Below, in pieces: positions 149 to 18,395 of a DNA stretch of 35,290 nucleotides. Each line of letters opens with the position of its first letter. The stretch's first letter is position 1. Origin of the DNA: Nocardioides sp. (GTDB lineage Bacteria > Actinomycetota > Actinomycetes > Propionibacteriales > Nocardioidaceae); the NCBI GenBank assembly GCA_003519585.1, contig DOWL01000242.1, positions 6,453 to 41,742 on the forward strand, in the 5' to 3' direction. The position numbers and the translations under genes were made by a program. The notes beneath the pieces were generated by a model that did not search any database, was not told where the DNA came from, and saw only the letters and a list, made by a program, of their open reading frames with translations.

Positions 149-925
149 ATGGCAACGGACCAGCGATGGGGGGAGGGTGGGGCAGCGGGGCGCGCCCTCG
201 AGTGCGTGGGCCGGGTCCTGGACCTCCGGGCCGCGACCGCCGATCGGGCAGACGGGCTCTCGATCGTCTGCCGGTTCGGCGCCGAACTGGTCGACGCGGC
301 CGCCGTCGGGCACGTCCGTTGCGACCGGCCAGGGCGGGCCAGCCAGCTGTGTGTCTGGCGGGGGAGCAGCCCCGAGCACACCCACTGGGAGGAGCGCGCC
401 GAGAGCCCGGAGGATCCCGGGCCACGGGACTGGTGGGCGCACAGCCCCAGCCGACCGCGGCTCTACGACCTGCTCGACTGCGACCACCTGGCCGAGCTCC
501 CGCTCTCGACCCACGACGCGACGCCGAGCCTGCTGGTCCTGGCTCGCACCGATCCCTTCGACGAAGCCGACAGCGACCGGTTGGCCACGGCTCGCGACTC
601 CCTGATATTGATCGAGCGGCTGGTGGACGTGCTCCTGCCGGCGCCGCCGCGCGACACCACGGACCGCTCGCCGGCCGACACCAACGACGAGGGCGCGGCC
701 CTGACCGCACGCGAGCGGGAGGTGCTGGAACTGCTCGGCCAGGGGCTCCTGGCCCGCTCGATAGCCACCAGGCTCGAGGTCTCCGAGCGCACCGTGCACA
801 AGCATCTCGGCAGCATCTACCGCAAGCTCGACGCCCACGACCGGCTGCTCGCCGTACGCCGCGGCGAGTCGCTCGGCCTGATCTCTGCGACCCAGGAGCG
901 CGAGTCGGTCGCGACGGGGTGGTAG
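149..925 (+). CDS. LuxR-type HTH transcriptional regulator
   Basis: A 258-aa DNA-binding regulator. The C-terminal part (about residues 184-245) is a LuxR/GerE helix-turn-helix with the family hallmarks LTAREREVLELLGQG, then SERTVHKHLGSIYRKL. The N-terminal 150 residues look like a small sensor domain, possibly GAF-like, with no aspartate-receiver signature, so this is not a classical response regulator. Residues about 165-183 form a hydrophilic linker. No strong Shine-Dalgarno precedes the ATG, so the start is the least certain part. It lies 45 bp upstream of, and on the same strand as, the block of unusual genes that begins with the S8 peptidase, which makes it the natural candidate to control that block. 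That role is inferred from position alone. Confidence 0.85.
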   Translation: MATDQRWGEGGAAGRALECVGRVLDLRAATADRADGLSIVCRFGAELVDAAAVGHVRCDRPGRASQLCVWRGSSPEHTHWEERAESPEDPGPRDWWAHSPSRPRLYDLLDCDHLAELPLSTHDATPSLLVLARTDPFDEADSDRLATARDSLILIERLVDVLLPAPPRDTTDRSPADTNDEGAALTAREREVLELLGQGLLARSIATRLEVSERTVHKHLGSIYRKLDAHDRLLAVRRGESLGLISATQERESVATGW

Positions 926-970
926 TTCTACGCATAGCCGCCCCGCGGCCGCCGCCGGACACTCGCAGAC

Positions 971-2278
971 GTGAAGCACCACCTCGTGGTGAAGATGCGT
1001 CGTCGGCTCCCGGAGCCGCCGCGCATCCCCGACTGGATCACCTTCATCACCGACAAGTCGTCGGTGGTGACGTCGGTGGACGCCCAGGTGGATGCGGTGC
1101 TTCGCGCGGCCGGCCGGCTGTTCTGGGTCACCCACGAGTACGCCCCCGCACTGGACGGCTGGGCCGCGCTCGAGGTGCACCACGGGCTGGACCGGACCTA
1201 CCGTCTGGTCCTGCAGCAGGGCGAGGACCGGCTCCCCGACGAGGTGCTCCTCAAGCTCGCTGCACAGCCGAGCGTCGAGAGCGCACACCAGTTGGAGGTG
1301 GGGGGCGCCGACCTGCCCGACAACCTGCCGGTCGCAGTCGCGACCGCGCGGGGCGTCGACGACGGCGGCCGCGGGCTGATCGGGCTCGACTTCGCGCGGG
1401 CCCTGTCGCGGGGTCGGCGCGACGTCCGGGTGGCCGTGCTCGACACCGGCATCAACCTCGACCACCCCGAGCTGCGCGGGAAGATCGTCGCGAAGGCCGA
1501 CTTCGTCGATCTGCAGGGCCTCGACACCTCGTCGTTCGTGGGCGACTTCCTGGGCGCCGATGACGACCCCGAGGACGAGCTGGGTCACGGCACGCACGTC
1601 GCCGGCATCATCGCCGCCGAGGGTGTGGGGATGGACCCGGGGATCGCCCCTGGCTGCAGCCTGATGGCGGTCCGGGTCCTGGCCACCCTCCGCTCGGGAG
1701 GCCGCGACCAGGGCGCGGGCGTGGTCGACAACATCAACCCTGGGATCAAGTTCGCCGCCGACAACGACGCCGATGTGATCAACATGAGCCTCGGGATCCG
1801 GCACGTCGGGGGCGGGCTACCGCACGAGGACGTGATCCGCTACGCGCTCGCCCGTGGCGTGACCGTGGTCGCGGCGAGCGGCAACGACGGCACGGACACC
1901 AAGTACTACCCCGGTGCCCTTCCCGGTGTGGTGGCGGTCGGCGCCGTCGACGGCGAGGGCCGGGTCGCCTCCTTCACGTCGTACGGCGCGCAGATCACGG
2001 TCGTCGCGCCCGGCGTCAACATCCTCTCCAGCTTCGCCCACGGCCGGTACGCCGTCGCGTCGGGGACCTCCCAGGCCTCGCCGTGCGTCGCCGGTGCGGT
2101 GGCGCTGCTCAAGTCCTTCGCCCGCGACAACGGGGTCCGGCTCGGGCCCGACGACGTGCTCCGGATCCTCCGCGAGACGTCCGACCGACCGGACCGCCGG
2201 CTGCGCAGCACGCACGCCGGATACGGGGTCCTCAACATGACCGACGCCTTCAAGTGGCTGATGGCCTCTCTCAACTGA
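971..2278 (+). CDS. S8 (subtilisin-like) serine peptidase without signal peptide
   Basis: A 435-aa subtilase. The full catalytic set is visible: Asp158 in VAVLDTGI, His206 in GHGTHVAGI, oxyanion Asn305 in AASGND and the nucleophile Ser367 in SGTSQASP, so the enzyme should be active. Residues 1-130 precede the peptidase fold and resemble a propeptide-like or adaptor region. There is no Sec or Tat signal and no membrane anchor: the N-terminus MKHHLVVKMRRR is charged and runs straight into a soluble sequence. An S8 enzyme that stays in the cytoplasm would have to be restrained or used for maturation or regulation. The GTG start lacks a clear Shine-Dalgarno; an in-frame ATG eight codons later is an alternative. 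It opens a plus-strand run of eight close-set genes. Confidence 0.93.
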   Translation: MKHHLVVKMRRRLPEPPRIPDWITFITDKSSVVTSVDAQVDAVLRAAGRLFWVTHEYAPALDGWAALEVHHGLDRTYRLVLQQGEDRLPDEVLLKLAAQPSVESAHQLEVGGADLPDNLPVAVATARGVDDGGRGLIGLDFARALSRGRRDVRVAVLDTGINLDHPELRGKIVAKADFVDLQGLDTSSFVGDFLGADDDPEDELGHGTHVAGIIAAEGVGMDPGIAPGCSLMAVRVLATLRSGGRDQGAGVVDNINPGIKFAADNDADVINMSLGIRHVGGGLPHEDVIRYALARGVTVVAASGNDGTDTKYYPGALPGVVAVGAVDGEGRVASFTSYGAQITVVAPGVNILSSFAHGRYAVASGTSQASPCVAGAVALLKSFARDNGVRLGPDDVLRILRETSDRPDRRLRSTHAGYGVLNMTDAFKWLMASLN

Positions 2279-2337
2279 TCACCGAACCACTGACCGCCGC
2301 ATTCGACCAGGCACGCACTCGGCACGCAGGAGCTCTC

Positions 2338-4389
2338 ATGACCACACTTGACGGGTTCACCATCCCGCATGGATTCCGGATCAGGCGCGCCGACGCCACG
2401 ATCAGCGGCATCGCCCCAACGGTCGACGAGCTCGCGGCGAAGCGGCTGGTCGAGCTCGACGCCCTGCTGCGCAAGCGCGTCGTACCCGTCGGTGAGGGCG
2501 CCGACGACACCTTGCTCGAGTGGCTGAAGCTGCCGCTCACGCCACGGCGGGCGACGGTCGACGACAACTGGGACGACGACACGCTGGCGGCCCGGCTCCA
2601 CAGCGAGCGCGAGGCGGGTGCCGAGGCGACGTTCCGCGAGGTCATCGACCGCGACCCGGCGCTGGCCAAGATGCGCTACCGGTTCGACGAGAGCGTCGAG
2701 GACCGTTGGAGCTCACTCGACTTCAACACCCGCTCGGTGCTGGCGCTCTCGAGTGTGCGCGACCTGATCGTGCTGCGCGCGGCCCGCACGTTGGGCATCA
2801 CCCAACAGCCCGCACTGGTCAACTTCGCGTTCGCCAACGCACGCGGCGCCAAAGAGCTGGTCACCTACGCGGTGATCAGCGCGGCCCGTGACCACATCAA
2901 GGCCCGCGGGCTCAACGTCCGCGACCTCAACACCCTCGGCAGTGCGTCGGTGACCGCACTCCAGAGCGCGAACCTGAGCCTCTCCGAGGACGCGCTCGCG
3001 CCGGGCGCCATCAAGGTGGCGACCGGCTTCATCGAGGAGTCGAAGTACGACAAGCTGATCAAGCTCGGGACCGACAAGCCGATCCCTGTCGACCTCCGGC
3101 CCCGCTTGGTGCAGTACATCCGCGAGTCCACCGTCGAGGTCACCGAGGAGAACGCGCCGTTCCTGGTGCCGCTCTACCTCGCCCGGGCCGCCACCACGAC
3201 CACCACGTCGAGCGGCGTGGCCGGCGACGACCCGTTCGCGGTGAGCTTCTTCGTCGACGACGCCGACACCCTGCAGGTCTCCACGGCCGCCGTGAAGTGG
3301 GCGGCGCAGCTGTTCTACGTGATGGTGCTCGGCGACGAGCTCGGGGTCTTCGACGCCGTCCGGTTCTTCACCCACCGCTACCTGTTCCGCGACGGCTTCG
3401 CCGTGGAGGATCCGAAGCTGCGGCGCGACCTGGAGAACTACGTCTTCTCCGAGCAGTTCCCAGGCCTCGACCGCGAGACCGGCGAGACCCGCACGATGCG
3501 GTGCACCCGCGACGGCGAGCGGCGCTCGTTCTACCGGCAGGTGTTCAACCACGGCTCCGAGCCGGTCCCCGGCGACGGGATCCCCAACTCCGACTTCGCC
3601 CGGCTCTGGAAGATCCTGATGCTGGAGTCGGCGCGCTACCTCGAGCGGGCCCAGTCCAGCCCGCACCCGGACAACTACGTGTCGCGACAGAACGTGATGC
3701 AGGCCGTCGAGGACCTGCAGTACAACCTGTCGGTCACCTGCGTCGGCATGTCGACCGTGATGACCCCGCTGATGTACGCCGAGCTCGACTTCGTCGTCGA
3801 GCGGATCCTCGGCCACCCCGAGGTCCGCAAGCACCTGGTGCCTTCGGGCGGCTCGTGGTGGAAGGTCGTCGAGAAGCTGCAGGCCGGCCAGGGCCGGCGG
3901 GCGCGAGCCTCGGTGCTGTTCAACAAGGCACGCCTGGGCTACACGCTGATCCGCGCGATCGCGGAGTACACGCCCTCGCGGTTCGAGCAGGACGACCCGT
4001 TCGCGGCGTTCATCAGCAACGTGGATGCGTTCATCACCACCCAGTCGATCCTCCAGGAGGAGGCCACCGGTGCTGGCGATCACGACACCGAGGGCTCGTC
4101 CTACGACGACGAGGGCTACGACAGCGGTTACGGCAGTGGGTACGGCAGTGGGTACGGCAGCAACGGCCACGACAGCGGCTACGGGAGCCAGGAGAACGGC
4201 CAGAACGGCTACGGCAGCGGCGCCCTGCCAGGCATGCCCGACCTCTCGAAGCTCCCGGGCATGCCCAGCATCCCTGGCGTCAGCGCGCCGTGGCCGGGCT
4301 CGGGCGGCGGGTCCAACGGCACCGGAGGCTCCGGCATGGGCGCCCCGTCGCCCACGCCCGGTGGCTCCGGGGACGAGTGGGACTTCTAG
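2338..4389 (+). CDS. Protein of unknown function, 683 aa, Gly/Ser-Tyr-rich C-terminal tail
   Basis: I do not recognise this family. The start is well supported: AGGAG at 2328-2332 precedes the ATG by 5 bases. Residues 1-575 read as a mostly alpha-helical soluble protein with no signal peptide or convincing membrane span and no nucleotide-binding motif. Residues about 590-630 change abruptly to a low-complexity tract in which GYGS/SGYGS units recur about seven times with Asn, Gln and His. This is followed by a Pro/Gly/Met/Ser-rich segment with a repeated LPGMP motif and a GGSG-rich stretch, ending in acidic DEWDF. Such [G/S]Y[G/S] tracts are typical of proteins that self-associate. The gene is 59 bp after the S8 peptidase and 48 bp before the next gene, so all three are probably co-transcribed. 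Confidence 0.8.
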   Translation: MTTLDGFTIPHGFRIRRADATISGIAPTVDELAAKRLVELDALLRKRVVPVGEGADDTLLEWLKLPLTPRRATVDDNWDDDTLAARLHSEREAGAEATFREVIDRDPALAKMRYRFDESVEDRWSSLDFNTRSVLALSSVRDLIVLRAARTLGITQQPALVNFAFANARGAKELVTYAVISAARDHIKARGLNVRDLNTLGSASVTALQSANLSLSEDALAPGAIKVATGFIEESKYDKLIKLGTDKPIPVDLRPRLVQYIRESTVEVTEENAPFLVPLYLARAATTTTTSSGVAGDDPFAVSFFVDDADTLQVSTAAVKWAAQLFYVMVLGDELGVFDAVRFFTHRYLFRDGFAVEDPKLRRDLENYVFSEQFPGLDRETGETRTMRCTRDGERRSFYRQVFNHGSEPVPGDGIPNSDFARLWKILMLESARYLERAQSSPHPDNYVSRQNVMQAVEDLQYNLSVTCVGMSTVMTPLMYAELDFVVERILGHPEVRKHLVPSGGSWWKVVEKLQAGQGRRARASVLFNKARLGYTLIRAIAEYTPSRFEQDDPFAAFISNVDAFITTQSILQEEATGAGDHDTEGSSYDDEGYDSGYGSGYGSGYGSNGHDSGYGSQENGQNGYGSGALPGMPDLSKLPGMPSIPGVSAPWPGSGGGSNGTGGSGMGAPSPTPGGSGDEWDF

Positions 4390-4437
4390 GCGAGCCACGG
4401 ACAGGTCAGACACGAGCGGATGAGCACGGAGGCCCGG

Positions 4438-5475
4438 ATGAACGACATCGTGACCCCCGACGGACAGATCCTCGGGCAGGCACGCAGCATCGCCCAAGGC
4501 TGGCTGTCCACCAGTCAGGCGTTCGCCAACCTGCCCTGGGACGAGCAGCAGAAGGTCTACCTCGACACGGTCCATCGCGAGGCCAACCGGCTGTCGACGG
4601 CACAGGGTCTGCCCGACCAGTTCTCGCGGCCCCAGGCCACCGATTCGGGCAAGGAGATGGGCTTCAAGGGCTACGACCCTGGGTTCCAGGGCTCGACCCA
4701 GGCCTTCAACGAGCTCGTCGACTCGGTGGACTTCCCGGCGTTCGTGGCCGACCTGCTCAAGGCCGTGTTCAACGCCAACCTCAAGGTGATGAAGGAGCAG
4801 ACCGACTCCTACATCAAGCTGATGAAGGAGTGCACGAAGTCGACCGCGGACTTCATCAAGAAGATCAACGATGACGACACCTTCGCCAAGCTCGCCGAGA
4901 GCAAGAGCGATCAGTACAACGTCTCGACCGAGCAGCAGCCCGACGGCTCGATGAAGCTCAACCTCACCAACCCGCAGGGCGACAAGGTCGACCCGGAGGA
5001 CTCCGAGGTCAAGAAGGCGATCCTCGAGACCAAGCTCAACATGGCCAAGGAGCACCGGGCCGCCCTGCGTGAGGTGCTGCTGATGGGCGTGACCCGGCTC
5101 GTGGTCGACAAGGGCGTGGTCGAGGCCGGCGTGGAGTTCATGATCACCGCGAACCGCAAGAGCACGGCCATGCACCAGGACCAGAACATCAACACCACGT
5201 CGATCCAGATGGACTACGACCCGCCGCTGTTCGGGCTCTTCGGTGGTCCCAGCGGGTCGATGTCGATGACCAACACCAACATCCAGGTCAACACCTCTCA
5301 GAAGGAGGCCACGGACACGCTGTCGGCCAAGCTCACCGGCAAGGTCAACATCCAGTTCAAGACCGACTACTTCAAGCTCGACAACTTCGCCAACATGTAC
5401 GCCGACGGTGGCGTCGCCGCTCTCAAGCCGGCGCCCGGCGCGGCTGCCGGCCCCCCCCCGCCCCCCGGCCGCTAG
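4438..5475 (+). CDS. Protein of unknown function, 345 aa, helical N-half and Asn/Thr-rich beta C-half
   Basis: Unrecognised. The ATG at 4438 is preferred because GGAGG at 4428-4432 lies 5 bases before it; an in-frame ATG at 4420 would add six residues. Residues about 90-145 are strongly helical (repeated MKEQTDSYIKLMKE-like pattern), and about 185-205 form another helix. From about residue 210 the sequence becomes beta-rich and unusually dense in Asn, Thr, Gln and Met (NINTTSIQMDYD, then MTNTNIQVNT). It ends in an Ala/Pro tail with a run of five prolines encoded by a C9-G-C6 tract at 5451-5466. There is no signal peptide. The alternating polar beta pattern would suit a structural or self-assembling protein, but that is inference. 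Confidence 0.75.
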   Translation: MNDIVTPDGQILGQARSIAQGWLSTSQAFANLPWDEQQKVYLDTVHREANRLSTAQGLPDQFSRPQATDSGKEMGFKGYDPGFQGSTQAFNELVDSVDFPAFVADLLKAVFNANLKVMKEQTDSYIKLMKECTKSTADFIKKINDDDTFAKLAESKSDQYNVSTEQQPDGSMKLNLTNPQGDKVDPEDSEVKKAILETKLNMAKEHRAALREVLLMGVTRLVVDKGVVEAGVEFMITANRKSTAMHQDQNINTTSIQMDYDPPLFGLFGGPSGSMSMTNTNIQVNTSQKEATDTLSAKLTGKVNIQFKTDYFKLDNFANMYADGGVAALKPAPGAAAGPPPPPGR

Positions 5476-5489
5476 GCCCATGACCCGCC

Positions 5490-7922
5490 ATGGCCCTGGC
5501 CCTGCTCCGGCTCGACGACAGCACCGAGACCGAGGTCTCGTTCACCGTCGACACGGGGACCAGCAGCCACTTCCGGCTCCACCTCGGTCAGGAGGTCCGA
5601 CGTGAGGACGGCATCGATATCCTCGACGGTCCGTACTGGTCCTCACCCCTGCAGGCCAACCCGGCCGCGGGCCGGCACATCGACACCCGGACCACCTACC
5701 AGCTGCCGCTCTCTTTGGTCACCGAGCGGGGCACCCTCGCTCAGGTGGAGTCCTGTCGCGGCCCGGACGGCCGGGGGCCGGCCTGGTCCCGCCCCGTCCG
5801 GCTGCCCGTCGCGGTGCCCTTGCGTTCGGTGCTCACCCCGCTGGACGACGGTCCGCGCGCTCGGGCTCAGCGGCGGGTGATGAGCATGTCGATGTCCGGA
5901 GCTCCCGTGACTGCACGCCCGTTGGCCCACCCGCTGGTGCGGCCGCGGACCGTCGCCGTACGCAGTGCTCAGGAGACGTTCAGCAGGCCGGCCAGCATCG
6001 CCGATCTGATCGGGACCATCGTGCAGGCGGCCGCGCCGGTCGTCCTCGACGTGCTCAACAAGGCGGTGCCCGCTGCGGCGCCCGGCGCGGCTGCGGCGGG
6101 CGGCGCCAAGGCGACCGCGGACCCGACGGCCGGACTGCTCGCGGACCTGCTGCGCACGGTGCTGGGCTCGCTGGCCCACCCGCCCTCCCCGACGGCTCCG
6201 GCGGCGGCCGTCACCGCACCGGCGCCGGTCGCCACTGCTCCAGTCCCCACCGCAGCGCCTGTGCCCGCCGCCACGACGACCGCTCCCGCACCGGCGACGA
6301 ACGTGGCCAAGCCGGCCTCGCTCCAGGTGCGCGAGGCGAATCGGTTCCTGCCCTCGTCGTACGCGCGGCCGATGATCTTCGGGGTCGACGACGCCCTCAT
6401 CGCGGCGGTGGCCGGGCCGGCGCTGTCGAGCGTCGTGGGCCCGCTGGTCCAGGCGTTGCCGCAACTGCTCAATGCCGCGAACGCGCAGAAGCTCGCCCGC
6501 CAGAAGGAGACCGACAAGCAGGTCACCGACCTGCTCTCCGAGGTGAACCGGTCGATGCTCATGCAGCAGTTGATCTCGGCCCAGAACCAGCCGGTCAACC
6601 CCGGCGTCACCTCCTCCGACCTCGCCGCGATCGGCTCGCTGCTGCAGCAGGTCGCCACGACACCGGCGCCCGCGGGGACCCCCGCCGGCGCGCTGGCCGG
6701 CACCGTCGTCGGCTCCCTCGTCGGCGGCCTCGCCCGCCCTGCCACCGTCGATGATCCCCGCGACCAGCCGATCGCGAGCCGCGCCACGCTCACCTCGGTC
6801 ACCGGGCCGGAGGTGACCCTGCTGGGCGCACCGAAGATCGCCTTCGCCCAGGGGCAGGCGACCACGCTGCGCTACCGCCTCGAGGTCGGTGCTGACGGCC
6901 CGACGGCCGCATTGCCACGGGCGATCCTGACCCTCTGTATCCGCGAGCCGGGCGGGGCCGCCGACCTCTGCACGCGCACCGAACGGCTGACCGACGTGGC
7001 TCCGGGCCAGGAGCTCAAGGTGGTCCTGACCCCCGAGGAGTGCGCGGCGCTGCCGGCCGACACCGATCTCGAGGTGCTCGCGTCGCTGCGGTGGAAGGGC
7101 GCCCGCGGGAGCTACCAGTCCACCTGCTGCCACCGCGTGGTCGTGATGACGCGGGTGCAGGTGCGTGACCGCGGTGCCGTGGTCGGTACGCCGGTCGAGC
7201 TGACCGACATGAGCCGCTTCCGCGGCTTCTGGAACCAGGTGTGGGCCTCGTCCGGCACCGGTCCGGGCGGCGAGATCTCGCCGCTCTGGGGCGTGGATGT
7301 GGCGCTGCGCTACTCGGTGGTCGCGGTGCCCGGAGAGCGTGGCAACGGCCTGATGGAGGCGAAGCTGCAGCCTCCGCCGGCCGACCCGGACGACTCTGGC
7401 GCCGACGGGCTGCGGGTCTCGACGAAGGGCCGGCTCAAGAGCGGTCTCGAGGTGAGCGTCCACGAGCTCAACAAGCTGCTGCCGCTGTGGGCCGGCGAGC
7501 AGCCGCTCACCGACGCCGACCTCACGGCGTTCACCGCGCGCGGCTGGCTCGCCGGTCAGGGCGGAGACGCAGTCACGCAGGTGCGGATGGAGGGCAAGCG
7601 CGGCACTCGGGGCGTGCTATGGGTGGTGCCGGTCCTGCGGCTGCGCGAGTTCACCCTGGCCACGGTCTCGGACGTCGATCCCTATGGGCAGGTGATCGGC
7701 ACCCAGGACCGGCCGGTGCACTTCCCCGTGGTCGAGAGCGTCCGGGTGCTCGGCCTCGCCTCGCTGCGGGAGGCCGCCGACCCCGGCGACGCCGCCGAGG
7801 TCGACGGTGCCCAGGACGCCGCGGGCGCACCGGCGTCGTACCGCTTCGACGGCTACGACGTGGTCCTCCAGTCCCTGGTCGGCCTCGAGCCCGCCGTACC
7901 ACTGCCGCGGAGCGGGAGCTGA
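5490..7922 (+). CDS. Large protein of unknown function, 810 aa, with Ala/Pro-rich linker and beta-rich domains
   Basis: Unrecognised, and very likely a real gene because codon bias holds throughout. Residues 1-110 look beta-rich (LRLDDSTETEVSFTVDTG). Residues about 155-275 are an Ala/Pro/Thr-rich, low-complexity linker containing a short helical hydrophobic segment. Residues about 280-390 are helical and include an apolar stretch (DDALIAAVAGPALSSVVGPL) that could be amphipathic or membrane-associating but is not a clear transmembrane helix. Residues about 430-810 are beta-rich and could hold one or more immunoglobulin-like folds, with several cysteines in residues 485-550. No signal peptide and no known catalytic motif was found. 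It starts 14 bp after the preceding gene and ends 5 bp before the next, consistent with one transcript. No good Shine-Dalgarno is visible at the ATG. Confidence 0.8.
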   Translation: MALALLRLDDSTETEVSFTVDTGTSSHFRLHLGQEVRREDGIDILDGPYWSSPLQANPAAGRHIDTRTTYQLPLSLVTERGTLAQVESCRGPDGRGPAWSRPVRLPVAVPLRSVLTPLDDGPRARAQRRVMSMSMSGAPVTARPLAHPLVRPRTVAVRSAQETFSRPASIADLIGTIVQAAAPVVLDVLNKAVPAAAPGAAAAGGAKATADPTAGLLADLLRTVLGSLAHPPSPTAPAAAVTAPAPVATAPVPTAAPVPAATTTAPAPATNVAKPASLQVREANRFLPSSYARPMIFGVDDALIAAVAGPALSSVVGPLVQALPQLLNAANAQKLARQKETDKQVTDLLSEVNRSMLMQQLISAQNQPVNPGVTSSDLAAIGSLLQQVATTPAPAGTPAGALAGTVVGSLVGGLARPATVDDPRDQPIASRATLTSVTGPEVTLLGAPKIAFAQGQATTLRYRLEVGADGPTAALPRAILTLCIREPGGAADLCTRTERLTDVAPGQELKVVLTPEECAALPADTDLEVLASLRWKGARGSYQSTCCHRVVVMTRVQVRDRGAVVGTPVELTDMSRFRGFWNQVWASSGTGPGGEISPLWGVDVALRYSVVAVPGERGNGLMEAKLQPPPADPDDSGADGLRVSTKGRLKSGLEVSVHELNKLLPLWAGEQPLTDADLTAFTARGWLAGQGGDAVTQVRMEGKRGTRGVLWVVPVLRLREFTLATVSDVDPYGQVIGTQDRPVHFPVVESVRVLGLASLREAADPGDAAEVDGAQDAAGAPASYRFDGYDVVLQSLVGLEPAVPLPRSGS

Positions 7923-7927
7923 GGACC

Positions 7928-8188
7928 ATGGACGAGGCGTTCGTGCCGCTGGCCGAGCTGGTGCCCGAGCTGTTGCCCGCCGTACCCGACCTGTACGACG
8001 AGGACGCCGGCGTGCGCACCTGGGTGACCGGCTACGAGGTGGACACCCCGGTCGAGCTGGCCATCGGCGTACGCCCCGACGGCACGGTCGAGCTGGGGGC
8101 CAGCCCGCCGATCTACCACGTGGCCACCGCCCAGCTGCCGGTCTTCCACTCGATCCGGGTGGTCGCGGTCCGCGAGGAGGTGCCCTGA
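7928..8188 (+). CDS. Small acidic protein of unknown function, 86 aa
   Basis: A short acidic ORF embedded in the operon. It starts 5 bp after the 810-aa gene, with GAGGA directly upstream of the ATG, and its stop overlaps the start of the next gene (TGATG at 8186-8190). This tight coupling is the main reason to accept it as real. The sequence has a helical N-terminus rich in Glu, Leu and Val, then an apparent beta-rich half (TPVELAIGVRPDGTVEL, then FHSIRVVAV). It matches no family I recognise. Its size and position suggest a small structural or chaperone-like subunit that works with one of its neighbours, but nothing in the sequence proves this. Confidence 0.75.
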   Translation: MDEAFVPLAELVPELLPAVPDLYDEDAGVRTWVTGYEVDTPVELAIGVRPDGTVELGASPPIYHVATAQLPVFHSIRVVAVREEVP

Positions 8189-8955
8189 TGTCCTCGGCGC
8201 TCCAGGACGAGGTCGGGCCCGCCTCGGCCAATGTCTCGTGGCGGCTCAACGACCTCGTCGACTCCATGGCCGTCGAGCTCGACCGCAGTCGCGAGACGCT
8301 GGCTGTCAAGGCGATCAACAAGAAGCTGAGCTACTCGGTCAAGGAGGTCGCCCTCGACGTCCACGCGTTCTTGACCTACGACGGCGACGCGGTTCGCTTC
8401 GTCACCGCCCAACCGGGTCAGGAGGGTGCGTCGAAGCTGACCATCCAGCTCGGCTCCATCACCGACCAGCAGGTGCGCGCGACGGCGAAGGTCGCCGAGC
8501 CCGGCGCGCCCCGGGAGAGCCTGGGTGAGCTCGACGTGGACGAGAAGACCAAGTCCAAGCTGCGCAAGATCGGCGTCAGCTCCGTGGACGACCTGAAGGA
8601 TCTCGAGGCCCGCAAGGTCGACCTCAAGGAGGCGACCGGCACCGACATCGACTACAGCAGCCTGGCCCGCAAGATCGGCCAGTCCCGCCGGGCCAAGGCC
8701 GCCCCGTCGATCGACGGGGTGAGCCTCTCGCAGACCGACGGCGAACCCTGCCTGCTGGTGGAGGGCCGCAACCTCGGCGTGGACCCGACCTTCCCGCCGG
8801 TGGCCGTCGTCAACGACCACCTGGTCGAGGTCCTCTCCAGCGGCCCCGGCCACGTGGCGCTCCGGCTGGATCCGGATCATCCGCTCCGCGAGGACAACGA
8901 GGTCGTCGTGACCTTCGACCCCTACGCGGTCGTCAAGGTGAACGTGAGGGCGTGA
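8188..8955 (+). CDS. 255-aa protein: trypsin-co-occurring-like domain, helix-hairpin-helix-like segment, IPT-like C-terminus
   Basis: The start is strongly supported by GAGGAGG at 8174-8180 and translational overlap with the preceding gene. Residues about 10-95 (an LNDLVDSMAVEL helix, then SYSVKEVALDVHAFLTYD and SKLTIQLGSI strands) follow the pattern of the trypsin-co-occurring domain Trypco2, described by Kaur, Aravind and colleagues in bacterial conflict systems next to peptidases. That assignment is by eye. Residues about 114-165 (KLRKIGVSSVDDLKDLEA) resemble helix-hairpin-helix repeats. Residues 172-255 (PSIDGVSLSQ, LLVEGRNLG) resemble an IPT/TIG immunoglobulin-like fold. No signal peptide is seen. 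With an S8 peptidase and a caspase-like protein in the same operon, a role as adaptor or peptidase partner is plausible. Confidence 0.8.
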   Translation: MSSALQDEVGPASANVSWRLNDLVDSMAVELDRSRETLAVKAINKKLSYSVKEVALDVHAFLTYDGDAVRFVTAQPGQEGASKLTIQLGSITDQQVRATAKVAEPGAPRESLGELDVDEKTKSKLRKIGVSSVDDLKDLEARKVDLKEATGTDIDYSSLARKIGQSRRAKAAPSIDGVSLSQTDGEPCLLVEGRNLGVDPTFPPVAVVNDHLVEVLSSGPGHVALRLDPDHPLREDNEVVVTFDPYAVVKVNVRA

Positions 8956-8959
8956 GGCG

Positions 8960-11161
8960 ATGTACGCGCGACCAGCAAGCCGCGACCAGGACTTCGACCA
9001 GCTGCTGAAGACCACCTATGGCCTCCCCCCGGCGGGGCGGCGCGGCCGTCCGCGTGGTCGATCGGTGACCATGACCGCCGACACCGGGGTCGAAGTTGTT
9101 CCGCAGCCGGGCCTCCCGCCGGTCCCACCCGAGGAGGCCACCGAGCTGCTGGAGTACGTCGTCGACCGCGAGCCGGTCGACGTACCCCAGCCGACGGAGC
9201 CCCCTCCCGCGCCGCTCCCGGCGCCGGTCCTGCCAGCGCCGCCCGCAGGTGACCTGCCACCCGCGCCCGCGCCGACCCTCCCGCTCGAGCCGAGCCCGGC
9301 ACCCGTCCCGGCCGTGCCTGCCACCCCGGTCACAGGTCCGGCAGCAGCCGCACCGGTCGCCACTCCTGCTCCGGCGACGACGACTCCCGCGCCCGCAGCC
9401 GCGACGGCACCGCCGCCAGCGCCGCCCGCGGCGGCCGGGGCACCGGCGCCAGCGGCCGCAGACCCGGTCGCGCTCCCGGCCTCGCTGGCGGCCTCGCCGC
9501 TCACCTCCGACGACCTCGCCGCCGACCTGCGCAACATCCTGTCCGGAGCTGCGTCCACGCCCGGTACGTCGGCCGCGGCGCCCGAGTCCGAGCCGGCGGT
9601 GCCGGACCCCGGCCGGCCGATGCCCGACAAGCCCAACGAGCAGGCGATCTTCGACAAGATCGCGCAGAGCATGGAGTACGCCAACAGCTTCGATCTCGGC
9701 AACGTCGACCTGCGTCGCCGGTTCGATCAGTTCGACCGGCAGGACGACGCCCGTCGGTCCCCGACGACGACGGCACCGATGAGCGCCGCCCAGTCGGTCG
9801 CCGCTCCGGCGGTCGACGAGGCTGCGCTGTTCCGGCGTTCGGTGCCGTTTGGATCACTGTCGAGCGTGCCGCTGACCGGTGGTTGTGTCACCGGCATCGG
9901 CGCGCTCACGCCCGGTCCGGAGCGGAGCGTCCCGATGTACGACACGGGGGAGCACGTTCAAGCGGGCGGCGATCTCTATCCCGACCAGCTCAACGTCAAC
10001 GGGGTGCTCTTCTCCTACGGCCAGATCGTGGCGATGGGCGATCTCTACAACGACGTCAACGACCTGCGGAGCGCGTCGGCGTCGGAGCTGAACGCCCTCA
10101 AGGCATTGATCGCCGAAGACACCAAGCACTACACCGGCGGCGGTGGCTCCGGGGTCTCCAACAAGCGCTGGAACGACGCGACCTCCAAGCGCTACCTCGA
10201 GCTGGCCGAGGAGAACTACGCGCACTTCTCACCGCCGACCGTGCTGGGCATGACGGATTCGACGTCGCGGCCGACCAACCGATCGGAATGGGAGAGGTAC
10301 CACGAGCAGGCCATCGAGGAGATGAGGACGCTGGTGGCCGCGAGCCCCAACGCCAGCGTGGCGCCGTTCGGGCCGCTGACCACCAACGCGTTCGGCGACC
10401 ACTTCCTCACCGACGCGTTCGCCGCTGGCCACCTGGTCAACAAGGAGGTGGTGATGAGCCGCGTGCGGGCGGCGTTCTACTCCAGTGGTACGACGACGAC
10501 CTCGGCCGGCGCGGACTTCCTCAAGCGCTTGGCGGCGGCGTGCTGGGCCCGCACCCCGGTGCGCAACGTCTTCAGCCCACTCGAGCAGTACGACGGGGTG
10601 CTGGGCATCAAGCACTTCAACTTCGACACCGTGGGCATGTTCCAGAAGCTCCTCGAGGGCATCGCCGAGCAGGCGCCGGCCAAGGTCGTCAACCTGCCGC
10701 TGAAGGCACTCCACGACCACCTCAACGAGGTGGGCGTCGAGGTCACGAACGACGCGGGCGACGCGCCGTGGCACCTGAAGGGCGACGGCCATCTGGCCGA
10801 GACCACCACGTTGCCGATCATGAAGCGCGCGGTCCAGCAGTCGATCGACAACATCCTCTCGCCGGAGATCCTGGTGAGCGAGGCGGACCGTGGACCGTTG
10901 TCGATCTCGTCCCATCCGGCCCTGCTGGCCCGGGTGTGGCAGCACGTGCCCTACCCGACCGCGGCCGGCCGCGCGCAGGCGGTCGCCGCACTCACGACGT
11001 ACACCGACCTCGCCTCCCCCGTGCTGCTCAACGCGGCGGCCGAGGTGATCGAGAAGCAGGCACCGTTCATCGCCCAGGAGCTGATCGACCGCAAGATCGT
11101 GCGGCACGAGGACGGTCCCGACTACGAGTGGAACGGCAGCGCTTGGCAGAAGCGCCGTTAG
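8960..11161 (+). CDS. 733-aa protein with Pro/Ala-rich N-terminus and phospholipase C / P1-nuclease-like zinc motif
   Basis: Residues 1-40 are basic, 44-175 are a Pro/Ala-rich linker, and about 222-262 form a compact charged module (IFDKIAQSMEYANSFDLG, then LRRRFDQFD). The remainder is a globular domain. Its central motif, GDHFLTDAFAAGHL, places His481, Asp485 and His491 in the exact H-x3-D-x5-H spacing of zinc-dependent phospholipase C and S1/P1 nuclease (B. cereus PLC His118, Asp122, His128). A second H-x3-D pair follows at His552/Asp556. The family's N-terminal Trp ligand cannot be the first residue here, so the match is to motif spacing rather than overall sequence. No signal peptide is seen. 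GAGG overlapping the upstream stop serves as a weak ribosome site. The stop codon abuts the inverted-repeat element at 11159-11323. Confidence 0.78.
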   Translation: MYARPASRDQDFDQLLKTTYGLPPAGRRGRPRGRSVTMTADTGVEVVPQPGLPPVPPEEATELLEYVVDREPVDVPQPTEPPPAPLPAPVLPAPPAGDLPPAPAPTLPLEPSPAPVPAVPATPVTGPAAAAPVATPAPATTTPAPAAATAPPPAPPAAAGAPAPAAADPVALPASLAASPLTSDDLAADLRNILSGAASTPGTSAAAPESEPAVPDPGRPMPDKPNEQAIFDKIAQSMEYANSFDLGNVDLRRRFDQFDRQDDARRSPTTTAPMSAAQSVAAPAVDEAALFRRSVPFGSLSSVPLTGGCVTGIGALTPGPERSVPMYDTGEHVQAGGDLYPDQLNVNGVLFSYGQIVAMGDLYNDVNDLRSASASELNALKALIAEDTKHYTGGGGSGVSNKRWNDATSKRYLELAEENYAHFSPPTVLGMTDSTSRPTNRSEWERYHEQAIEEMRTLVAASPNASVAPFGPLTTNAFGDHFLTDAFAAGHLVNKEVVMSRVRAAFYSSGTTTTSAGADFLKRLAAACWARTPVRNVFSPLEQYDGVLGIKHFNFDTVGMFQKLLEGIAEQAPAKVVNLPLKALHDHLNEVGVEVTNDAGDAPWHLKGDGHLAETTTLPIMKRAVQQSIDNILSPEILVSEADRGPLSISSHPALLARVWQHVPYPTAAGRAQAVAALTTYTDLASPVLLNAAAEVIEKQAPFIAQELIDRKIVRHEDGPDYEWNGSAWQKRR

Positions 11162-11323
11162 GCCATGTCTCCCAAGTCCCGGCGGCGCAGCCGCCGCCCA
11201 GATCACGCGCTGGCGGCGTTGCCGTCACTCGCTGGACGTACAAGTAGAGCTTCGCTCCGGCGCCTTGCCACCGCGCGCCTGGACGACGCCTGCATCCACC
11301 GCTACTTGAGAGACACGGCCTAG
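11159..11323. repeat. MITE-like element with 17-19 bp terminal inverted repeats
   Basis: The left end TAGGCCATGTCTCCCAAGT (11159-11177) and the right end ACTTGAGAGACACGGCCTA (11304-11322) are inverted copies matching at 17 of 19 positions. They enclose a GC-rich core with a small GGCGGC/GCCGCC hairpin at 11181-11195. Both ends are flanked by TA, the target duplicated by IS630/Tc1-mariner elements, though two bases are weak evidence. A 52-codon ORF beginning with the ATG at 11165 in the left repeat reads through to a TAG just past the right repeat (Arg-rich start, ending LDDACIHRYLRDTA); it may be incidental. No transposase is encoded. The element starts in the stop codon of the phospholipase-like gene. 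Confidence 0.6.
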
Positions 11324-11333
11324 GAGACCAGAC

Positions 11334-13397
11334 ATGACATCCATGACCGGCACCAGCACGAACAGGTTCCTCGAGACCCGCCGCTACTACGGTGGCCGGC
11401 ACGACGTGCTGGCCCGCCCCCGCCGCGGCCACGCCTGGGCGGTCCCGGCTTCGGCCGCCGACCGGGTCCTGGTCGTGCTCATCGAGAACGGCGGCATCGA
11501 CCTGGGACTGCCGGACCTCGTGGACAAGCTGATCAGCGAGATCCCCGGCGCCTCGTCGGTCATCAGCGACAGCATGAAGGCCCAGCTGGTCTCGGGACTG
11601 AAGGATTGGCTGCTCAAGACCACCGACCACCTGATCGAGTCGGCCGAGCTGGCGCTGAACCGGTATTCGGCGACCAAGCCCGACACCTACGGCGACGTCG
11701 TCGTCCTGCGCGACTCGACGGCGACGTTCGGCGAGCTGAAGAACGCCCTGTTCACGGCCAGCCGGGCCGGCAAGGTGATCGACCTGGTGATCCTGACCCA
11801 TGGCCGCAGCGACTACATCTCGGCCGACAACGGCATCGACGGCGCCCGGATCCGCGCCCTGGCCCGCGAGTACGGCGGCCCGCTGAACATCCGCTCGGTC
11901 TACATGATGAACTGCGTCGGCTCGAGCCTGAACCAGGCCTGGCTCGACATCGGCGCCCGCACCAGCGCGGGCAGCCACGAGAACAACTACCTCCCCGAGC
12001 CGACGACGTACTTCTTCTTCTCGGCTTGGAAGGACGGGCAGACCTTCGAGTCCGCGGTCACCGGTGCCTACCGACGCACCGTCGACGACATGAACGCGGC
12101 GCTGCGCGGCCTCGTGATCGGCCTGGTGCCCTTGGCCGGTGCGGCGCTGGCCGGCCAGATCGACGTCAGTACACTCTCCTTCGTGGTCGCCAGCCGGCCC
12201 GAAGTGGTGGGGACCGGCTCGGTGACGATCTCGACCGACGCACTGCCGCCCGCCACGAGCGGCACCTCCACGGGGCAGAGCCTGGTCACGACCGTCGTAC
12301 CGACCCGGACGCGTGCGCTGGTGCGCACGATGTCGGTGCCGCGGACCGTGTCGCCCAGTGGACGCACCTTCATCCAGCGCTGGGAGCTTGCCGGGCCGCA
12401 ACTCGACCAGCGGATCCTCGCGGTCGAGGCGTTCCTGAGCGACCGCGTCGCCACCCCGCTGACTCAGCCGCAGATCGACGCGCTGGCGAGCTTCGGCGTC
12501 GGGATCGGCGCTCCGGCGCTGCTGCGCTCGACGTTGCTGAAGATGCTCGACGCGGGCGACCTGACCTCGATCCCGGGCGAGATGCGCAAGTGGACCAAGA
12601 TCCGCCGCGACGGCAAGGTCGTCGAGGACGAGCGGCTGCTCGAACGGCGCCGTGCCGAGGCCGAGCTGTTCGGTGGCGGTCCGCTATCCCTCGTCGCCGT
12701 ACCGGCCTCACGTGAAGTGCGCGAGTACTCCTACCAGCAGAACCCGGCGGCCGCCGCGATCGGACTGGCCGAGGTCGTCGAATGGGGACTCGCCGCCGGT
12801 GCGATCGTGCAGTCCGGGGTGCAGGACGCCGCCGGCTCGTTCAGCCTCACCTACGACGACGCGCACCGACTGCTCACCCCCCAGGGTCGGCTCGGGATGC
12901 CGGGGGTCGCCGCCGCCACGCAGTCCTATCGGCGTCGCTTCCTCACCGTCCCGCAGTTCCGTGCCGGCACCGCGCACGCGACGATCGACCTGGTGTGGAG
13001 CGGCAACGCGTACGGCGAGATCACGTCCGTGGTCTTCGAGCGGGTGCTCACCGAGTCGAGCGAGTGGTCGAAGTCGGACCTGCACATCACCGTCAACGCA
13101 CTGAGCCGGATCCCGGTGAGCAAGGACCCGCGCGAGTGGCCGATCACCTTCCGCTACCAGGGCACCTACGACCCGCTGGGCAACGGATACGTCGAGTTCC
13201 AGGGCGAGATCGAGGTCAACGCCTTCGGTGGGGTGCGCTGGATCAGCCCGCACCAGGCGGTCTCGCGGTCGCTGTCCGACTTCCTCCTCAGCGGAAGCCC
13301 GGAGGACTGGGTCCGGCGCGGCCCCGACGTCTGGCCGGCCACGCCGACGATCCCGGCCGAGCAGGCGGCGTTCCTGCGTCAGAACGTGCCGGGGTGA
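11334..13397 (+). CDS. Caspase-like (clan CD) domain fused to shortened GH24 lysozyme-like domain, 687 aa
   Basis: Residues about 105-235 show a caspase/CHAT-type peptidase pattern: the strand-helix VVVLRDSTATFGELKNAL, then DLVILTHG with candidate catalytic His156, then IRSVYMMNC with candidate Cys194, and a trailing segment ending FESAVTGAYRRT as in clan CD peptidases. A hydrophobic stretch follows at about 262-280. Residues about 342-446 match GH24 (phage T4-type) lysozymes: FIQRWE with Glu351, then PLTQPQIDALASFGVGIGA, TLLKMLDAGDL and RRRAEAELFGG. The 30-40 residues that normally follow the catalytic Glu, including the Asp/Thr of the active site, are missing. Residues about 455-687 are a further domain I do not recognise. 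No signal peptide. TAGGAG at 11321-11326 can act as ribosome site. Last gene of the block. Confidence 0.8.
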   Translation: MTSMTGTSTNRFLETRRYYGGRHDVLARPRRGHAWAVPASAADRVLVVLIENGGIDLGLPDLVDKLISEIPGASSVISDSMKAQLVSGLKDWLLKTTDHLIESAELALNRYSATKPDTYGDVVVLRDSTATFGELKNALFTASRAGKVIDLVILTHGRSDYISADNGIDGARIRALAREYGGPLNIRSVYMMNCVGSSLNQAWLDIGARTSAGSHENNYLPEPTTYFFFSAWKDGQTFESAVTGAYRRTVDDMNAALRGLVIGLVPLAGAALAGQIDVSTLSFVVASRPEVVGTGSVTISTDALPPATSGTSTGQSLVTTVVPTRTRALVRTMSVPRTVSPSGRTFIQRWELAGPQLDQRILAVEAFLSDRVATPLTQPQIDALASFGVGIGAPALLRSTLLKMLDAGDLTSIPGEMRKWTKIRRDGKVVEDERLLERRRAEAELFGGGPLSLVAVPASREVREYSYQQNPAAAAIGLAEVVEWGLAAGAIVQSGVQDAAGSFSLTYDDAHRLLTPQGRLGMPGVAAATQSYRRRFLTVPQFRAGTAHATIDLVWSGNAYGEITSVVFERVLTESSEWSKSDLHITVNALSRIPVSKDPREWPITFRYQGTYDPLGNGYVEFQGEIEVNAFGGVRWISPHQAVSRSLSDFLLSGSPEDWVRRGPDVWPATPTIPAEQAAFLRQNVPG

Positions 13398-16487: not shown

Positions 16488-18395
16488 ATGTTCTCGCGGG
16501 TGCTCCCCTCCGTGCTGACCGGCGTGCTCGTGGTCGGGTTGGCCGCCTGCACCGGCGACTCGGGCGACGACGGGCCGACCGCGCCCGATCCTCAAGACAG
16601 CCTCACCGCCCTCGGGTCGGGGTTGACCGCCCAGGACCTGTCGAAGGTGCCGTTCGACGACGCGACCGCCACCACCGCGCAGGCGTCGTACGACGACGTG
16701 ACGGCGCAGCTCGCCGACCTCGACCACACGGTCGAGACGGCCGGCGTCCGCGTCAGCGAGGCGGGCGAAGCCGCCACGGGCACGCTGCACTGGACCTGGG
16801 ACCTCGGCGGCGCCACCTGGGAGTACGACGCGCCGGTCGACCTCACGCTGCCCGCCGACGCCGAGGAGTGGCAGGTGGTCTGGGCGCCCACGGTCGTCGA
16901 GCCGTCGCTCGCGGAGGGTGACGCGCTGGGCGTCTCGTCGGTGCTGGCCGACCGAGGCGACATCATCGGCGCCGGCGGCGAGACGATCGTGACCGAACGC
17001 CAGGTCTCGCGGGTCGGCATCGACAAGACCCAGCTGGACGGCGCCGACCCGGTCGCGTCGGCTCGCGCGCTCGCCCGGCTGGTCGGCGTCGATGTCGGGC
17101 CGTTCGTGAAGGCGGTCAGGGCCGCCGGTGCCCAGGCGTTCGTCGAGGCGATCGTCTACCGCCGCGAGGAGCTCCCCGCGGAGGTGAGCAACGGCGTAGC
17201 CGGGATCGCCGGTGCGCGGATCGTCGCCGACACCCTGCCGCTCGCCCCGACCCGAGACTTCGCCGCACCGCTGCTCGGCCGGGTCGGACCTGTCACCGCG
17301 GAGGTGATCGCGGAGCACCCGGAGTACCACCCCGGCGACATGGCCGGCCTCTCGGGCCTTCAGGAACGCTACGACGAGCGGCTGCGCGGCACCCCCGGCG
17401 TGCTGGTGCAGGCGGTGCCGGAGGACGGGCCGGCCCGCGACCTGTTCCGCACCGAGGCGACCCCCGGTGACCCGCTGGTCCTGTCCCTCGACGTCGGTCT
17501 GGAGACCAAGGCCGAGGAGCTGCTCGCCGGCGTCGGCCCGGCCAGCGCGCTGGTGGCGATCCGCCCCTCGACCGGCGAGATCCTGGCCGCCGCCAACGGT
17601 CCGGGCACCGGGGGTCAGAACCTCGCGACGTACGGCCAGGCCGCACCCGGCTCGACGTTCAAGACCGTGAGCAGCCTCGCCCTCCTGCGTGCCGGGCTGA
17701 CGCCCGACACCACCGTGCCGTGCACGCGCACGATCACCGTGGACGGCAAGGAGTTCAAGAACTACTCCGACTACCCCAGCAGTGCCTTCGGCGACATCCC
17801 GCTCCGCACCGCCGTCGCCAACTCGTGCAACACGGCCTTCATCTCGCAAGCTGGGAAGCTGTCCGGCACGAACCTGTTCGACGCGGGCGTCTCGTTGGGC
17901 ATCGGCCTCGACCACGACCTCGGCTTCCCGGCCTACTTCGGCAACACCGAACCCGACCCGGACAGCGAGACCGGAGCCGCGGCCCAGCTGATCGGTCAGG
18001 GCACGATCCTCGCCTCGCCGATGGTCATGGCCACCGTGATCGCCTCGGTGCAGCAAGGCGCGCTCGTTGTGCCCCGGATGGTCGAGGGCGTCGAGGTCAG
18101 CGCACCCGACGGCGCCGCGCCACTCACCGAGGCCGAGGCCACCGCGCTGCGCCAGATGTTGCGGGGCGTGGTCACCGACGGCAGCGGCCGCGGGCTGGCC
18201 GACGTACCTGGTCCGCCGGTGATCGCCAAGACCGGCACCGCAGAGTTCGGCTCCGGCTCCGACGTACAGACGCATGCCTGGATGATCGCCGCCCAAGGCG
18301 ACCTCGCGGTGTGCGTATACGTCGACATCGGCACCTCCGGCAGCCAGACCGCCGGCCCGATCGTCGAGGCATTCTTGCGGGCCGCGAAGGCGTGA
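16488..18395 (+). CDS. Class B penicillin-binding protein, lipoprotein, PBP2a-like
   Basis: A 635-aa peptidoglycan D,D-transpeptidase. The signal sequence ends in the lipobox LAAC with Cys21, so the protein should be lipid-anchored on the outer face of the membrane. Residues about 40-150 match the NTF2-like MecA-N domain, 160-330 the dimerisation domain, and 340-635 the transpeptidase domain. All three active-site motifs are present: Ser389-T-F-Lys392, Ser446-C-Asn448 and Lys581-T-G. The ATG at 16488 is preceded by AAAGGAG. This architecture is widespread in actinobacteria and acts in cell-wall cross-linking; some relatives have low beta-lactam affinity, but nothing here proves resistance. 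Confidence 0.93.
   Translation: MFSRVLPSVLTGVLVVGLAACTGDSGDDGPTAPDPQDSLTALGSGLTAQDLSKVPFDDATATTAQASYDDVTAQLADLDHTVETAGVRVSEAGEAATGTLHWTWDLGGATWEYDAPVDLTLPADAEEWQVVWAPTVVEPSLAEGDALGVSSVLADRGDIIGAGGETIVTERQVSRVGIDKTQLDGADPVASARALARLVGVDVGPFVKAVRAAGAQAFVEAIVYRREELPAEVSNGVAGIAGARIVADTLPLAPTRDFAAPLLGRVGPVTAEVIAEHPEYHPGDMAGLSGLQERYDERLRGTPGVLVQAVPEDGPARDLFRTEATPGDPLVLSLDVGLETKAEELLAGVGPASALVAIRPSTGEILAAANGPGTGGQNLATYGQAAPGSTFKTVSSLALLRAGLTPDTTVPCTRTITVDGKEFKNYSDYPSSAFGDIPLRTAVANSCNTAFISQAGKLSGTNLFDAGVSLGIGLDHDLGFPAYFGNTEPDPDSETGAAAQLIGQGTILASPMVMATVIASVQQGALVVPRMVEGVEVSAPDGAAPLTEAEATALRQMLRGVVTDGSGRGLADVPGPPVIAKTGTAEFGSGSDVQTHAWMIAAQGDLAVCVYVDIGTSGSQTAGPIVEAFLRAAKA

Follow-up and report, generated by a model that had tools for sequence, protein, structure and literature searches.

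A six-gene core with exchangeable, often tagged cargo genes in Nocardioides and distant phyla: a candidate effector-loading cassette

Results

A constant core followed by exchangeable cargo

The window analysed here, a stretch of 35,290 nt of Nocardioides sp. (GCA_003519585.1, contig DOWL01000242.1, 6,453-41,742, forward strand), carries nine open reading frames (ORFs; g1 to g9) that run in one direction with a strong codon-position GC bias (149-13397, +). Comparison with other loci (designated by L-numbers; coordinates of parts are positions in the window unless a locus is named) divides this block into a conserved core of constant order, comprising g2 (an S8 protease), g3, g4, g5, g6 and g7, and an exchangeable cargo tail to which g8 and g9 belong, the genes 3' of g7 differing between hosts. 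The nine co-directional genes described by an earlier sequence-only reading are thus present, while its unit of nine equal genes gives way to a six-gene core with exchangeable, often tagged cargo, a g1 homologue in the equivalent place being found at L001-L003 only (blastp). Because a constant core with one protease as its sole recognised enzyme accompanies exchangeable, often tagged proteins, of which many are enzymes acting on wall, protein or lipid, we regard it as an even call that the cassette is a self-contained, phage-tail-independent machine for loading and deploying tagged effectors. The core and cargo features are as follows:

971..2278, +: g2, core, S8 subtilisin-like protease (Peptidase_S8, E 7e-49)
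2338..4389, +: g3, core, 683-aa orphan with a Gly-rich C-terminal tail; homologues in 13/13 loci of the first scan
4372..4386, +: extreme C-terminal DEWDF of g3, a possible docking-type short motif; a WD[FV] ending is common to 13 of the 15 g3 proteins listed
4438..5475, +: g4, core, 345-aa orphan, the most conserved; 882 relatives, alignment A1
5490..7922, +: g5, core, 810-aa orphan; structural model with predicted local distance difference test (pLDDT) 73 and predicted template-modelling score (pTM) 0.60
7928..8188, +: g6, core, 86-aa small protein; 10/13 loci, L024 and 4/4 held-out loci
8188..8955, +: g7, core, 255 aa; Trypco2-like N-terminus (weak), helix-hairpin-helix-like middle (weak), TIG-like C-terminus
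8960..11161, +: g8, cargo, N-terminal adaptor region and C-terminal zinc-phospholipase C (PLC)/P1-like domain (about aa 301-733)
9647..9739, +: adaptor motif of g8, IFDKIAQSMEYANSFDLGNVDLRRRFDQFDR, recurring in cargo of other phyla
11334..13397, +: g9, cargo, N-terminal tag, caspase-like domain, degenerate GH24 lysozyme domain and C-terminal g9C domain
11358..11390, +: N-terminal tag of g9, TNRFLETRRYY, one of 16 training tags

The core order recurs (tblastn, blastp) in Actinomycetota, Bacteroidota and Cyanobacteriota and in metagenome-assembled genomes (MAGs) labelled Novosphingobium, Thermoanaerobaculia and Eisenbacteria, and its hosts include both envelope types. One scan of GTDB species genomes yielded 13 loci (L001-L013), with Mycobacterium sp. 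(L001), Agromyces (L002), Microbacterium, two Fulvivirga species, Sinomicrobium, Rhodonellum and Calothrix as named hosts and the remaining hosts being MAGs labelled Bacteroidetes, Thermoanaerobaculia, Novosphingobium, Eisenbacteria and Oculatellaceae. Among these 13, g3, g4 and g5 were detected in all, g2 in 12, g7 in 11 and g6 in 10, where L005 starts inside g3 and has a partial g7, and the contigs of L006 and L012 end before g6 with g5 truncated. A Tolypothrix plasmid (L024), whose six core genes are complete, and the further loci L040 (from the scan of the Fulvivirga order) and L041-L043 (from that of the Calothrix order), which have all six in order, bring the total to 18 loci, 14 of them with the full core. 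Contig ends truncate three of the incomplete ones, and in L011 g6 was not detected. The sequence-only reading had taken repeated co-occurrence in distant genomes as the sign of a system, and at least five members do occur together there, the orphan genes co-localising with the S8 gene.

Pairwise distances of g2, g3, g4, g5 and g7 (16-18 loci) are correlated with r between 0.62 and 0.96 (0/1000 permutations in each of 10 pairs). The core therefore varies together, in a way that distance correlations do not separate into co-transfer and shared descent. Two MAG loci, L004 and L006, lie nearer to the actinobacterial set than their labels predict, which may reflect transfer or misbinning.

Cargo domains and the shared N-terminal tag

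Domain scans of cargo, which covered cargo-region proteins outside L013, found different enzymes in the same position behind g7. L004 encodes an M15_4 peptidase on an adaptor and a protein combining C70 papain-like, GH24 and PLC-like domains; NlpC/P60 matches weakly in L007 and L009 cargo, L009 also has GH24 and VanY, and L040 has DUF4347. In L007, L008 and L010 the PLC-like domain of g8 is part of a caspase-like protein, and in L004 it belongs to the papain-lysozyme protein; the g9C domain is likewise present on other wall-hydrolase proteins. A search with the L008 protein (mostly g9C) returned 67 proteins, read from sequence without genomic context, eight of which had precomputed domains (four C70, three GH24 and one Tae4); rescanning five of the eight gave the same result. 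A constant N-terminal tag or adaptor is thus joined to different enzymes, the arrangement that defines polymorphic toxins.

Many cargoes share the N-terminal tag NR[LIF][LIF]-x-L-x-x-x-L. Its strict form, NR[LIFV][LIFV] in the N-terminal 30 residues, occurs in 12/22 cargo ORFs vs 0/219 other ORFs, for a pattern picked by eye on L001-L013, with the two L002 cargo genes of uncertain start kept out of the 22 and their called ORFs counted among the 219, and with counts inflated by orthologues (L007, L008 and L010 have three cargo types in common), so that the bearers reduce to about seven architectures. A matrix trained on 16 tags from L001, L004, L007-L010, L013 and the window was then scored on 299 ORFs of 18 loci. 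Eight held-out ORFs exceeded 11, all of them cargo of L040-L043 (the g8-like proteins of L041-L043 being distant homologues of training proteins), against a best score of 7.3 outside cargo; these are 8 of the 10 held-out ORFs assigned to cargo regions, L040 5390-6019 and L041 3312-4913 failing. The Tae4 protein from the g9C search (P0231) starts MNNNRLLVLEQKV. The second shared piece is an adaptor motif around IFDKIAQSM..ANS(F/Y)DLG, and the g8-type motif is also visible in P0215 and P0218. Cargo that a common component recruits would be expected to carry such a tag and adaptor.

Compartment cargo typically carries short targeting tags and disordered tails. These features, together with the fact that no export signals were seen, would also fit an intracellular storage or enzyme-organising body (an inclusion or compartment) whose cargo serves normal wall turnover. 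We consider this improbable, as the recognised cargo domains are lytic or proteolytic and exchangeable, and the distribution of the cassette is sporadic.

Within the window, conserved residues bear on the enzyme folds proposed for g8 and g9. In g8, H481-x3-D485-x5-H491 (fragment positions 181/185/191 of alignment A10) and other His residues are invariant in 7/7 members, and this HxxxDxxxxxH is what we take to be the zinc-ligand spacing of phospholipase C/P1 nuclease; g8 has no Pfam match, PF00882 included, at E up to 1. For the caspase-lysozyme fusion proposed for g9, the caspase part rests on an HG pair (156-157) and Cys194, invariant in 6/6 members, and the lysozyme part on a Phage_lysozyme match, which spans profile positions 40-125 only. 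The GH24 domain keeps its Glu and lacks the loop on which intact relatives presumably have the catalytic Asp and Thr, as do all three actinobacterial copies compared (window, L001 and L002). Because this loop is absent, the g9 lysozyme is probably inactive, and active cargo in this host would therefore be the caspase-like and PLC-like domains.

Core proteins

Families were searched in Pfam and PHROGs for the block proteins, and in NCBIfam and PADLOC for those other than g6. Across Pfam and NCBIfam, g3, g4, g5, g7 and g8 fall below every curated cut-off, so that the three large orphans (683, 345 and 810 aa) remain orphans; g6 has no Pfam match at E up to 1 and no significant PHROGs match. Below E 0.001, PHROGs recognises only g9 (endolysin), and PADLOC only g2 ('subtilase' and one IetS model).

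The S8 peptidase assigned to g2 is confirmed. Besides a conserved N-terminal region of ~140 aa, it has the Asp-His-Ser triad of the S8 subtilisin family (D158/H206/S367), which is invariant with N305 in 15/15 members, and its PDB matches are subtilisins, some of them intracellular. With 185.2 bits against the mycosin model, g2 could also suggest a variant type VII-like secretion locus. However, the equivalog cut-off of 278.75 bits is not reached, the nine genes, to which these scans were confined, contain no secretion ATPase (EccC) or WXG100 family (Pfam, NCBIfam), and the cassette also occurs in Bacteroidota and Cyanobacteriota, which makes this reading highly improbable.

For g4, the start at 4438 is favoured by the starts of homologues. 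It contains an invariant TDYFKLDNF (alignment A1). There are 882 relatives of g4 (E<=1e-3, among 7978 candidates), and those with names among the 120 relatives listed are called 'hypothetical protein'. The g4 model, of low confidence (pLDDT 60, pTM 0.32), consists of helices followed by two long predicted strands, both with alternating hydrophobic residues; the PDB sequence search gave no match and the fold search no significant one. The g5 model has an N-terminal beta-sandwich, a low-confidence middle and a large beta-rich C-terminal half, with generic Ig-like matches. The Trypco2 likeness proposed for g7 is weak, with a match in 1/13 homologues (E 0.0098), against TIG in 3/13 (best E 9e-5).

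Signal-peptide-like starts were not seen in any block protein (hydropathy heuristic), as previously stated. The accompanying claim of no transmembrane anchor is likely and less certain, given moderately hydrophobic Ala-rich segments in g5 (168-188, 302-320) and g9 (255-278, 474-492).

Distribution and divergent relatives

Among sampled species, seed included, 2/396 Actinomycetota and 2/296 Bacteroidota were positive (the second one distant in each), as were 1/60 in the genus of Agromyces, 1/301 in the family of Mycobacterium, 3/241 in the order of Fulvivirga (one very weak) and 7/195 in the order of Calothrix (three weak). Such rare and sporadic occurrence is what a mobile cassette would show. 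Relatives of g4 were found in 4 plasmid records, in 0 of 50,697 phage records and in 0 cases by an IMG/VR pattern scan. In L024 (1-22106), IS701-family transposase genes with an identical protein accession flank the core on both sides.

Some loci have additional genes. One lies between g2 and a shorter or g3-like gene in the Fulvivirga, Sinomicrobium, Rhodonellum, Calothrix, Oculatellaceae and Tolypothrix loci, and carries a PG_binding_1 domain in L013 and L024; in L042 (1700-3310), an SBBP beta-propeller protein stands between the S8 gene and g3, in the place of that peptidoglycan-binding protein. Cyanobacterial loci also have an unrecognised gene between g5 and g6 (L013 13321-16785; L041 8766-10061; L043 10068-11363; L024 18331-19641).

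A divergent core set is found on Burkholderia pyrrocinia plasmid pBPJTT (L025, 4128-19868), with S8, g7-like and g3-like genes and four g4 paralogues, accompanied by a 1254-aa Amidase_2, C92 and C70 protein. Tandem g4-like genes, recognised by one match and a similar reading by eye, occur in L018 (9203-12269), where a weak helix-hairpin-helix protein follows, and in L019 (5265-6906), without other core genes detected nearby. In Nostocales, an S8-like gene lies near a distant g4-like gene in L044 (5454-9430), L045 (5727-12962, which additionally has a g7-like gene) and L046 (5556-9387); these loci possibly form a second class.

Block layout and neighbouring genes

The block opens with a regulator, in agreement with the sequence-only reading:

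149..925, +: g1, LuxR/GerE-type regulator (Pfam GerE, E 1.8e-15)

A LuxR-type regulator that is weakly g1-like (E 1e-5) is also encoded immediately 3' of the cassette in Fulvivirga marina (L007 19559-20248). The very short gaps or overlaps described between the genes hold for the seven from g1 to g8 (45, 59, 30, 14, 5, -1 and 4 bp, the third becoming 48 bp with the better g4 start); not all gaps are very short, because g8 and g9 are separated by 172 bp. The next gene after g9 encodes an amino-acid permease, and a tRNA-Ser gene lies downstream of the block on the minus strand (17598-17696). The ORFs flanking the L001 and L002 cassettes have no counterpart beside the window block except a shared HTH, so the block itself is the unit.

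Discussion

A proposed machine and its alternatives

We propose that g3, g4, g5 and g7 would assemble in the cytoplasm into a particle, in which many copies of g4 would form a ring or tube bearing long beta-hairpins, g5 would provide an Ig-like scaffold, and the WDF tail of g3 together with g7 would serve as docking parts. Cargo would be packed via its N-terminal tag or a g8-type adaptor, and the S8 protease may mature the particle or free the cargo. As no secretion signals were seen, the whole assembly would most likely be released by lysis, and would then deliver wall- and membrane-attacking enzymes to other bacteria.

The same cytoplasmic gene set could instead be a self-destruct device, in which a trigger would cause the S8 and caspase-like proteases to set the enzymes against the producing cell for programmed lysis, phage defence or the release of common goods, with g4 perhaps making a membrane hole. 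The lack of visible secretion signals, the intracellular S8 proteases among the g2 matches, the caspase-like cargo and the filamentous cyanobacteria (Calothrix, Tolypothrix) among the hosts would suit such a device, as would the fact that immunity genes next to the cargo were not noticed, where no systematic search was made. However, the Tae4, papain-like and amidase domains resemble interbacterial effectors, the PADLOC models matching the core, scanned apart from g6, are limited to the generic 'subtilase', and broad turnover of cargo is more characteristic of weapons, so that we consider self-destruction rather unlikely. Two readings stand foremost, release by lysis and lysis directed at the producer, because export signals were not seen by the heuristic and hosts have either envelope; delivery is favoured in view of the Tae4, amidase and papain-like domains. 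The lysis, cell-death or antagonism role first suggested for the block fits the Actinomycetota, Bacteroidota and Burkholderia cargo and the g9C-related proteins, and does not extend to the cyanobacterial cargo, which has no recognised enzyme; the action may be directed at other cells or at the producer.

Several observations weigh against delivery by a loaded particle. The particle is hypothetical, the g4 model is poor and its fold search gave no significant match, and genes for secretion, lysis or receptor binding were not identified. On the cargo side, the strict tag is absent in 10/22 cargo ORFs and also in the L002 g9, to the extent that the start of that gene can be placed; the orthologues behind the tag counts, the degenerate lysozyme of the window and the missing sign of an immunity gene count in the same direction. 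Five cargo-region proteins of the cyanobacterial L041-L043 have no significant Pfam match, and in L024 an IS701-family transposase gene lies directly 3' of g7. Finally, three of the six host genomes without a match to a contractile sheath, discussed below, are MAGs.

In its most specific form, the loading and deployment proposal describes a new class of protein-delivery machine without phage-tail parts, contraction or NTPase, with a g4 barrel or tube, a g3/g5/g7 scaffold, maturation by its own subtilisin and wall- and membrane-degrading effectors loaded through a short N-terminal tag (NR[LIF][LIF]xLxxxL and basic residues), the whole passing as a cassette among Gram-positive and Gram-negative bacteria; we put this forward tentatively. 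If true, a new toxin-deployment machine functioning in both cell-envelope types would join a short list, and the short tag could be used to find further effectors by sequence search. The core families without a curated match (g3, g4, g5, g6 and g7) gain a context, and a self-lysis device, if that is the function instead, would still be a widely spread and unrecognised one.

Comparison with known systems

Like extracellular contractile injection systems (eCIS; Afp/PVC/MAC type), the cassette is scattered over distant phyla. Cargo of eCIS is described as recruited by N-terminal signals (PMC11495950), and the cassette cargo also has a shared N-terminal tag, for which a loading role may be proposed. 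A difference from eCIS is that families of sheath, tube, baseplate, AAA ATPase and tail fibre are all missing from the window block (Pfam, NCBIfam, PHROGs), in line with the absence of ATPase, sheath and tube noted by the sequence-only reading. The cassette could still supply the payload of a contractile injection system or type VI secretion system (T6SS) encoded elsewhere in the genome, and 6/12 host genomes do have a sheath match, 5 of them over the cut-off. The other six, including Mycobacterium (L001) and Agromyces (L002), have none, and no sheath or tail family was found in the window block, which leaves this a poor candidate; for the same two reasons we conclude that the cassette is not itself a contractile system. 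A non-contractile tailocin or prophage remnant was also considered and rejected: tail-tube and tape-measure genes were not found, PHROGs gives only the g9 endolysin below E 0.001, and relatives of g4 were found neither in the 50,697 phage records nor by the IMG/VR pattern scan.

Beta-barrel pore-forming proteins and podovirus collar proteins, which are among the non-significant fold matches, resemble the predicted two long g4 strands with alternating hydrophobics; g4 differs in having no PDB sequence match and a low-confidence model. Trypco2/caspase conflict systems, as described by Kaur et al. 2020 (PMC7159879), have caspase-like and S8-type peptidases as players. The cassette resembles them in its weak Trypco2-like domain and its caspase-like and S8-type peptidases, and differs in its structural-looking core and wall-hydrolase cargo; no NTPase core family (STAND, MoxR-vWA and others) scores above cut-off in the block (Pfam, NCBIfam, PADLOC). 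Polymorphic toxin and T6SS effector repertoires (Tae4, GH24, M15, papain-like) share with the cassette a constant module combined with exchangeable enzymatic domains, whereas VgrG, PAAR and Rhs are unmatched in the window block and the cassette has a six-gene core of its own.

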